A stretch of 64,000 nt of DNA from Methanoculleus bourgensis MS2 (lineage in GTDB: Archaea > Halobacteriota > Methanomicrobia > Methanomicrobiales > Methanoculleaceae). The notes under the pieces are model-generated. The model saw nothing but the letters and a program-made list of their open reading frames with translations. It ran no database searches and was not told the DNA's origin. Made by a program: the position numbers and the translations under genes. The stretch covers positions 2,356,001 to 2,420,000 of the forward strand of contig NC_018227.2 in the NCBI RefSeq assembly GCF_000304355.2, given 5' to 3'. This document shows positions 31,220 to 33,745 of this stretch, piece by piece; positions within the stretch are counted from its first letter, which is position 1, and each line of letters opens with the position of its first letter.

Positions 31220-31567
31220 ATGGCTAAAGAGAAACGTGCAGAGTTACAGGGAAAGGTTCTCAAGTTACTGGATCTCGTCGCCTACCAGGACGGGACCGTG
31301 GCAAGCAGGATGATCATCAACAACCGATCAGGGAGCATCACCCTCTTCTCGTTCGACGAGGACGAGGGGCTCTCTGAGCACACCGCGCCTTACGACGCGG
31401 TGGTGACGATCCTTGACGGGGAGTGCGAGGTCTGGATCGCGGGCGAGACGCACCAGATGAGCGCGGGGGAGACGATCATCTTCCCGGCAAACGTCCCCCA
31501 CGCCCTCTCCGCCATAACGCGGTTCAAGATGTCGCTTACGATGATCCGGGGGAGTGAAGGAGCGTGA
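31220..31567 (+). CDS. cupin domain protein 2
   Basis: A 115-residue cupin with a full motif set: SEHTAPYDAVVTILDGECEV (motif 1) and IIFPANVPHALSAI (motif 2). The pattern resembles small methanogen cupins annotated as of unknown function. ATG 31220 is chosen because homology starts there; the frame is open to 31181, immediately after the NapH-like gene. Its stop overlaps the GTG start of the next gene by 4 bp, so the two are translationally coupled. Confidence 0.87.
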   Translation: MAKEKRAELQGKVLKLLDLVAYQDGTVASRMIINNRSGSITLFSFDEDEGLSEHTAPYDAVVTILDGECEVWIAGETHQMSAGETIIFPANVPHALSAITRFKMSLTMIRGSEGA

Positions 31568-31839
31568 CAAACGAGAAGGAAGGCGATTACTGCACCATAT
31601 GCGGCGGGATCAAGCCAGAAGCGATCAAGATCAAGACGGTCCTCGTGAACGGGAAGGCGACCGGCATCAACCAGCTGGAGATGATCATCGATGGCGTTCG
31701 GAAGTTGCATCTCGCGGATGACGCCGCCATCCGCGCAGAACTCCTCAGGAGGGCCGGCGCCTTTAACTACATACCGACAAAGAAGAAAGAGGCTTACGGC
31801 GACGCCCTGATGCAGGAGTATAAGACGGCTCCGGAGTGA
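31564..31839 (+). CDS. small CxxC protein, end of cupin/Fe-S operon
   Basis: A 91-residue protein that starts with GTG overlapping the upstream stop. It has one CTICGG motif near the N-terminus (a redox or metal-binding pair), followed by a beta-rich KIKTVLVNGKATGINQLEMI segment and a helical tail ending in YIPTKKKEAYGDALMQEY. I have seen similar small proteins in methanogens but cannot name a function. Operon position with two cupins and a membrane Fe-S protein suggests a redox role. Confidence 0.8.
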   Translation: MTNEKEGDYCTICGGIKPEAIKIKTVLVNGKATGINQLEMIIDGVRKLHLADDAAIRAELLRRAGAFNYIPTKKKEAYGDALMQEYKTAPE

Positions 31840-31887
31840 GAGGGCAGGATCAGAGCCTCCCTGTTTGGGCAACGGGGGTTCCTTGGC

Positions 31888-32116
31888 CAGTACTTCGCTA
31901 AAACGGTTGAGGTAATCTTCAAGAGGCCAAACCATCGTCCTCCCTTCGCGTTCTTCGCGGCTTCGCGTGAGTTAATGGGCGAAGATAGCAATATGGCCTC
32001 TCGCGCTCTCACGCGTTGCCCGCGAAGTCCGGTGCCCGGGTGCTGCCGAACCCGTTTTAGGTCGCTATGCGAGGCTGCATTGGTCGATTTCAGATGCCGA
32101 AATTAGCGAAGTACTG
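31888..32116. mobile_element. MITE-like element with 14-bp terminal inverted repeats and 5-bp target duplication
   Basis: The segment begins CAGTACTTCGCTAA (31888-31901) and ends TTAGCGAAGTACTG (32103-32116), perfect inverted repeats. Both ends are flanked by TTGGC (31883-31887 and 32117-32121), a 5-bp direct repeat of the kind left by transposition. The 229-bp interior has no ORF of note and includes CTTCGCG-rich tracts. These are the hallmarks of a non-autonomous miniature transposable element; no transposase is in the window. It fills much of the 523-bp gap 31840-32362, which otherwise holds a T6 run near 32131 and no gene. Confidence 0.72.
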
Positions 32117-32362
32117 TTGGCGGAGACGCCGTCCTTTTTTGGGGGGCGATCCGGGGGAATTGGTTGTTTTCATCCATGCAGCCTCTCGCCGCGCCTCATG
32201 AGTGATTCATCCACTCTGCTCCTCTGGCCGCCATCGTAGAGCGAACCCCTGATGCGGCCCCCGCCCTTTTCTCTCCCGGAGGATCTGCTCTCCGGGAACA
32301 CGCCGCATCACAACCCTTTTTCCCCGGCCGCCCCCAATTTCAGTACCGAAATAGGAATCCCC

Positions 32363-33745
32363 ATGCCCGCCACTCCAGATGCCGTTCAGCGCCGGACCGT
32401 CCTCATCATCGCCACCCTCGCCGCGTTTCTCACCCCCTTCATGGGCTCGGCGGTGAACATCGCGCTCCCGTCCATCGCCGCCGAGTTCACCCTGGACGCC
32501 GTCTCGCTGAGCTTCGTGGCCTCGTCATACCTCCTCGGAACCGCGATGTTCATTGTCCCGTTCGGCCGGTTCGCCGACATCTACGGGCGTAAACTGGTCT
32601 TCACCCTCGGTGTGGTCGTCTTCACCGCATCAGCCCTGCTCTCGGCGCTCGCGACATCGGGGCTTGCGCTCATCCTCTTCCGGTTCATCGAAGGCATGGG
32701 GAGCGCCATGATCTACGGCACCGGCGTCGCCATGATCACCTCGGTCTTCCCACCAGAGGAGCGGGGGCGGGCACTCGGGATCAACGTCACCGCCGTCTAT
32801 ATTGGCCTCTCCATCGGGCCGTTCCTCGGCGGCTACCTCACCGAGTTCCTCACCTGGCGGAGCATCTTCCTCACCAACATCCCTCTCGGCATCTACATCA
32901 TCTACCAGATCCGTCGCCACCTGGCCGAAGAGTGGGCAGACGCACGCGGGGAGCGGTTCGATATCATCGGTTCGGTCTTCTACAGCGCGATGCTCCTTGC
33001 CGTGATGTACGGGTTCTCAAAACTCCCGGAGCCTGGCGGTATTGCGGCGATCATCGCCGGCGTGGTGCTCGCCGGGGTCTTCTACGCCTGGGAGACCAGG
33101 ACGCCGGACCCGGTCCTTGATATACCGCTTCTTGCATCAAACAGGGCATTTGCGCTCTCAAACCTCGCCGCTCTGATCAACTACGGCGCGACGTTTGCCG
33201 TCGGCTTCCTCCTCTCCCTCTACCTCCAGGTGGTCAGGGGGCTCGACCCCGGCACCGCGGGGCTCGTCCTGATCACGCAACCGGTCGTCCAGGCGCTCTT
33301 TGCCACCCCGGCCGGGAAACTCTCCGACCGCGTCGAGCCGCAATACGTCGCATCAGCAGGGATGGCGCTCACCACCCTCGGCCTCGCCCTCCTCACGTTT
33401 CTCGCGCCCGAAACCCCGATACCCCAGATCATCGCAAGCCTTGTCCTCTTCGGGTTCGGGTTCGCCCTTTTCTCCTCCCCGAACACCAACGCTGTCATGA
33501 CCTCGGTCGATAGATCTCTCTATGGCGTCGCGTCCGGGATGCTCGCCACCATGCGGACGACAGGGATGATGTTCTCGCTTGGGGTCGTCACCGTCATCTT
33601 CGCCGTCCTCATCGGCACCACCCAGATCGGGGCCGCGGTCCAAGCCCCCTTCATGACGAGTCTCCAGGTGGCGTTCACCGTCTTCACCATCCTCTGTGCC
33701 CTCGGCATACCTGCCTCACTTGCCCGGGGCAGGGTGCGGGGGTGA
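32363..33745 (+). CDS. MFS multidrug efflux transporter (DHA2/EmrB-like)
   Basis: A 460-residue major facilitator transporter with 13-14 predicted helices. The motif A region GRFADIYGRKLVFTLG follows helix 2, motif C-like AVYIGLSIGPFLGGYL occurs in helix 5, and the 14-helix layout matches the DHA2 drug:H+ antiporter family. The natural substrate is unknown. The frame is open to 32252, but ATG 32363 precedes the first helix directly. Its stop lies 10 bp from that of the convergent decarboxylase gene. Confidence 0.9.
   Translation: MPATPDAVQRRTVLIIATLAAFLTPFMGSAVNIALPSIAAEFTLDAVSLSFVASSYLLGTAMFIVPFGRFADIYGRKLVFTLGVVVFTASALLSALATSGLALILFRFIEGMGSAMIYGTGVAMITSVFPPEERGRALGINVTAVYIGLSIGPFLGGYLTEFLTWRSIFLTNIPLGIYIIYQIRRHLAEEWADARGERFDIIGSVFYSAMLLAVMYGFSKLPEPGGIAAIIAGVVLAGVFYAWETRTPDPVLDIPLLASNRAFALSNLAALINYGATFAVGFLLSLYLQVVRGLDPGTAGLVLITQPVVQALFATPAGKLSDRVEPQYVASAGMALTTLGLALLTFLAPETPIPQIIASLVLFGFGFALFSSPNTNAVMTSVDRSLYGVASGMLATMRTTGMMFSLGVVTVIFAVLIGTTQIGAAVQAPFMTSLQVAFTVFTILCALGIPASLARGRVRG

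Follow-up and report, generated by a model that had tools for sequence, protein, structure and literature searches.

A non-autonomous element with ISH3-type ends and a dispersed hairpin core in Methanoculleus bourgensis MS2

Locus and structure of the element

The window, a stretch of 64,000 nucleotides from the genome of Methanoculleus bourgensis MS2 (G000; one contig of 2.79 Mb), contains an insertion located between a gene for a 91-aa protein and a gene for a major facilitator superfamily (MFS) transporter (Table 1). The insertion is intergenic, with no gene being interrupted, and it ends about 246 bp from the start of the transporter gene. Its right end (TTAGCGAAGTACTG) is the exact reverse complement of its left end (CAGTACTTCGCTAA). 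A previous reading made from the sequence only had described perfect 14-bp terminal inverted repeats, TTGGC on both sides and a length of 229 bp, all of which were recovered in their places. None of the listed ORFs of at least 80 aa lies inside the element.

Table 1. Features at the insertion locus, in positions of the window
Feature	Position	Strand	Basis or remark
Left neighbour gene, 91 aa, no Pfam match, conserved genus-wide	31564..31839	+	ORF, synteny, Pfam
Left target-site duplication, TTGGC	31883..31887	.	Sequence, comparison of target-site duplications, deletion scan
Non-autonomous element (MITE), 229 bp, subfamily A	31888..32116	+	Sequence and genome copies
Left terminal inverted repeat, CAGTACTTCGCTAA, 14 bp	31888..31901	+	Followed by A, like the right end of the IS
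Forward arm of the internal hairpin core, CTTCGCG..TTCGCG..CTTCGCGTGAG	31944..31971	+	Genome-wide copies of CTTCGCGTGAG
Loop separating the hairpin arms	31972..31997	.	Least conserved part relative to subfamilies B and C
Degenerate reverse arm of the hairpin core	31998..32027	-	Judged by eye in alignment
Right terminal inverted repeat	32103..32116	-	CAGTACTTCGCTAATTT in the inward direction; the left end of the IS has the same 17 bp
Right target-site duplication, TTGGC	32117..32121	.	Sequence, comparison of target-site duplications, deletion scan
Right neighbour gene, MFS transporter	32363..33745	+	ORF, domain search

Perfect 14-bp inverted repeats with arms at most 300 bp apart occurred only once in the window, where they form the ends of the element and are flanked by matching 5-bp sequences. 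In 30 random sequences as long as the window, generated with an order-1 Markov model of the dinucleotide make-up of the window, there were 10 such repeats altogether and none with matching 5-bp flanks.

We also searched for relatives lacking the insertion. Both neighbouring genes are syntenic in the relative G023 and the insert is absent. In a blind scan, each 234-bp block was deleted in turn and the remaining stretch was aligned to G023. The best fit was obtained for removals starting at 31883-31888, that is, for the element plus one TTGGC, with a score of 23.8 as compared to a maximum of -1.6 for shuffled sequences and -36.7 with the insert kept. At the empty site, G023 reads ATGGC instead of TTGGC, and the intergenic DNA is diverged. 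The locus is also syntenic in G020, in which intergenic divergence leaves the junction unreadable. Local alignments of the joined flanks to the loci of all relatives yielded mostly noise because the intergenic DNA has diverged, with only the syntenic G023 being informative. Empty sites were base-precise for a sister element of 1018 bp at 2273263-2274280 (L037:264-1281), which has ISH3 ends and into which members of other repeat families, among them a CTAG-bounded one, are nested. In six relatives, the flanks of this element abut with a single GGTGA overlap.

Related copies and a full-length partner

Further copies had been expected from the sequence-only reading, and a genome search for the 14-bp ends gave 27 exact occurrences, compared with 0 for the reversed control. 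The genome contains at least 13 relatives of the element, which belong to three subfamilies (A, B and C), and the full copies of subfamily A at 558238, 955981 and 1883284 are 93-96% identical to the copy in the window. The copies have 5-bp duplications of their own. Among 15 complete elements with these ends, a set that includes two full-length insertion sequences (IS) and the 1018-bp element, the duplication is perfect in 12 and matches at four of the five bases in the other three. The duplications include TTGGC, GGCCA, GGGCA, TATCC, GGTCA, AGGCT, ACGCA and AATAG, without uniform A/T edges. When subfamilies B and C were compared with the window copy, identity was 62-79% in the outer flanks and 23-42% in the loop, as if the cores had been exchanged or were evolving faster.

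Matches to the MITE sequence were obtained in 30 of 35 genomes of the genus, many of them to the hairpin core only, as in G006, where none of the exact ends was found. The transposase described below had matches in less than half of the 35 genomes, and at least some MITE copies have therefore been moved by a transposase that is no longer seen, or have been inherited. Longer versions of the MITE, 271-368 bp in size, occur in genus relatives (L121, L125 and L127), where an extra short repeat of the GGTTGCTC or GGTGCTC / GAGCACC type adjoins the hairpin core.

The full-length relative predicted to be located elsewhere in the genome is represented by two identical IS of 1318 bp at 1261895-1263212 and 2440081-2441398, which have the same 14-bp ends as the MITE and are flanked by the 5-bp duplications AATAG and ACGCA, respectively. 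The IS contains an intact gene for a transposase of 386 aa, which matched the NCBIfam model for the ISH3 family (NF033541) with 269.5 bits (cutoff 225). A weak match to IS1634 (20.9 bits, cutoff 100) was rejected. Pfam searches with the transposase gave no matches, and there were no solved structures near it in sequence. In a comparison with relatives from Methanoculleus, Methanoregulaceae and Methanosarcinaceae that are 47-82% identical, residues D116, D198 and Y291/R294/E298/R302 were invariant, of which D116, D198 and E298 presumably constitute the DDE triad.

The ISH3 family consists of archaeal IS that have been split from IS4 and is characterized by lengths of 1225-1500 bp, CRGT ends, repeats of 4-5 bp and a Y-2-R-3-E-3-R signature without the full YREK motif (PMC2266710). 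The partner IS resembles this family in its length, its CAGT ends and its 5-bp duplications, and its transposase does so in the spacing Y291-2-R294-3-E298-3-R302, the absence of the full YREK motif and the above-cutoff NCBIfam score (PMC2266710). The element in the window, in contrast, has no transposase and has only the ends in common with ISH3 elements. The 386-aa transposase is 100% identical in two other genomes of the genus, including that of Methanoculleus sp. Afa-1, which suggests that the IS has moved or been transferred recently. In the Afa-1 assembly (G004), copies of this IS are located at the ends of contigs C4-C8 and C14; the assembly breaks there, and the true copy number is thus probably higher than the listed one.

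The hairpin core

The interior of the MITE is not derived from the IS. It contains a single unit of a (CTTCGCG)n hairpin that is dispersed in the genome and ends in the 11-mer CTTCGCGTGAG. The 11-mer has 323 exact copies in the genome as compared to 1 for the reversed control, and it is amplified in many, albeit not all, members of the genus and hardly elsewhere in the order. The numbers of 11-mer copies and ISH3 ends were correlated across the 35 genomes (Spearman 0.64, kinship ignored), and two of these, G006 and G014, contained 48 and 30 hairpin copies with 0 exact ISH3 ends. A tandem array at 1395552-1395998 (L023:53-499) contains 4.2 copies of a 106-bp unit built of hairpin arms.

We inspected 30 hairpin loci, 10 from strong matches and 20 among the first 100 forward matches listed, a partly random selection in which loci already seen were avoided. 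At 17 of these, the hairpin is enclosed by ends other than the ISH3 ones, which are of three types (CTAGTGGAGCATTTCA, CTAGTGCCAAGTCAA and CTAGTGCTCGTTGTCATCTTA) and all start with CTAGTG; several mismatches were allowed in these assignments, and single ones are approximate. The commonest of these ends belongs to a MITE-like family with the ends CTAGTGGAGCATTTCACCT, which is far more numerous than the ISH3-ended one: AGTGGAGCATTTCACCT had 323 genome matches with up to 3 mismatches, compared with 8 for the reversed control. The target of this family is probably CTAG, and its members often enclose the CTTCGCG hairpin (genome-wide in G000 and at L164, L168, L172, L173 and L189). Two further MITE-like families with CTAG-bounded ends and a CTTCGCG hairpin core are those with the ends CTAGTGCCAAGTCAA (L183, L177) and CTAGTGCTCGTTGTCATCTTA (L184, L186). 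The CTTCGCG hairpin motif was not found in the open-licence literature.

Origin of the element and of its interior

The element is short, carries no transposase gene and combines terminal inverted repeats, a target-site duplication, empty sites and multiple copies with a full-length partner that has identical ends and an intact transposase gene, as is characteristic of MITEs. The copies, the partner IS and the empty sites support the sequence-only reading of a non-autonomous transposon, and we consider it very probable that the window element is a MITE of the ISH3 type, mobilised by an ISH3-family transposase that acts on its ends. The full-length IS, in two identical copies, would supply the transposase, which would recognise the 14-bp ends of the MITE and mobilise it, and insertion between the two genes at a staggered 5-bp cut would give rise to the TTGGC duplication. 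We infer that mobilisation would have occurred in trans, by the transposase of the IS that is now present rather than by an extinct or other one with identical ends.

There is hardly any room for a chance inverted repeat, or for a terminator or another structured RNA, in place of a mobile element. As a single DNA strand, the element folds better than shuffled sequences (z -4.75), but copies with independent 5-bp duplications are located at unrelated sites, Rfam gave no convincing match for the element, and the inner hairpin arms vary without matching compensation, as read from the sequences rather than counted. The empty sites and the multiple duplications refute this interpretation. We also find it improbable that the MITE arose from the IS in this genome by decay and internal deletion, which is the usual, although not obligatory, origin of such elements. 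The 14-bp ends are identical and their polarity is kept, since the right end of the MITE shares 17 bp with the left IS end and the left end of the MITE shares 15 bp with the right IS end. However, in comparisons with six copies of the IS type the similarity is limited to the outer 14-17 bp, reaching about 28 bp at one end in subfamily C, and the interior consists of a dispersed repeat rather than of an IS remnant. A deletion derivative of the local IS was therefore rejected, since the similarity stops at the ends. MITEPsy1 is a prokaryotic MITE moved by its parental IS, the movement of which has been demonstrated in vivo (PMC3189936). The window element is similar to MITEs of this type in being shorter than 300 bp and having terminal inverted repeats, a target duplication and a full-length partner in the genome, but differs from them in that its interior is a dispersed hairpin, which is also contained in MITE-like elements with other ends.

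An arrival of the window copy by means of ISH3 is compatible with another interpretation, which we regard as rather doubtful, namely that mobility or homogenisation resides mainly in the interior hairpin, which was acquired by several kinds of wrapper, the ISH3 ends being one of them. The hairpin motif outnumbers the ISH3 ends more than tenfold (323 exact matches as compared to 27), was enclosed by other ends at more than half of the loci in the partly random sample, and is abundant in the two genomes with zero exact ISH3 ends, but a mobile hairpin leaves the TTGGC duplication and the ISH3 ends of the window element unexplained.

The BOX elements of pneumococcus are modular intergenic repeats with an inner unit in variable number. 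The hairpin-bearing elements of Methanoculleus resemble these in being modular and in the varying number of the inner unit, whereas they differ in that the inner unit is located within several end types and in that the ISH3 ends are associated with clear target duplications. Tentatively, and as a possibility that we rate somewhat below even, the (CTTCGCG)n hairpin may be an exchangeable core of several MITE families with unrelated ends, comprising the ISH3 type and at least three CTAG-bounded types. Such a core might spread via different transposases, either by being mobile or recombining in its own right or through something that it confers on its carrier, for example tolerance or regulation.

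We found no paper on MITEs of Methanoculleus among open-licence publications. The ISH3-type MITE is itself of an ordinary, known kind, and the shared hairpin core is the sole part that is unusual to a specialist. The locus provides a complete and testable pair of an archaeal MITE and an autonomous IS, including empty sites. A repeat module that is present inside elements with unrelated ends would be a way for non-coding DNA to spread independently of any single transposase.
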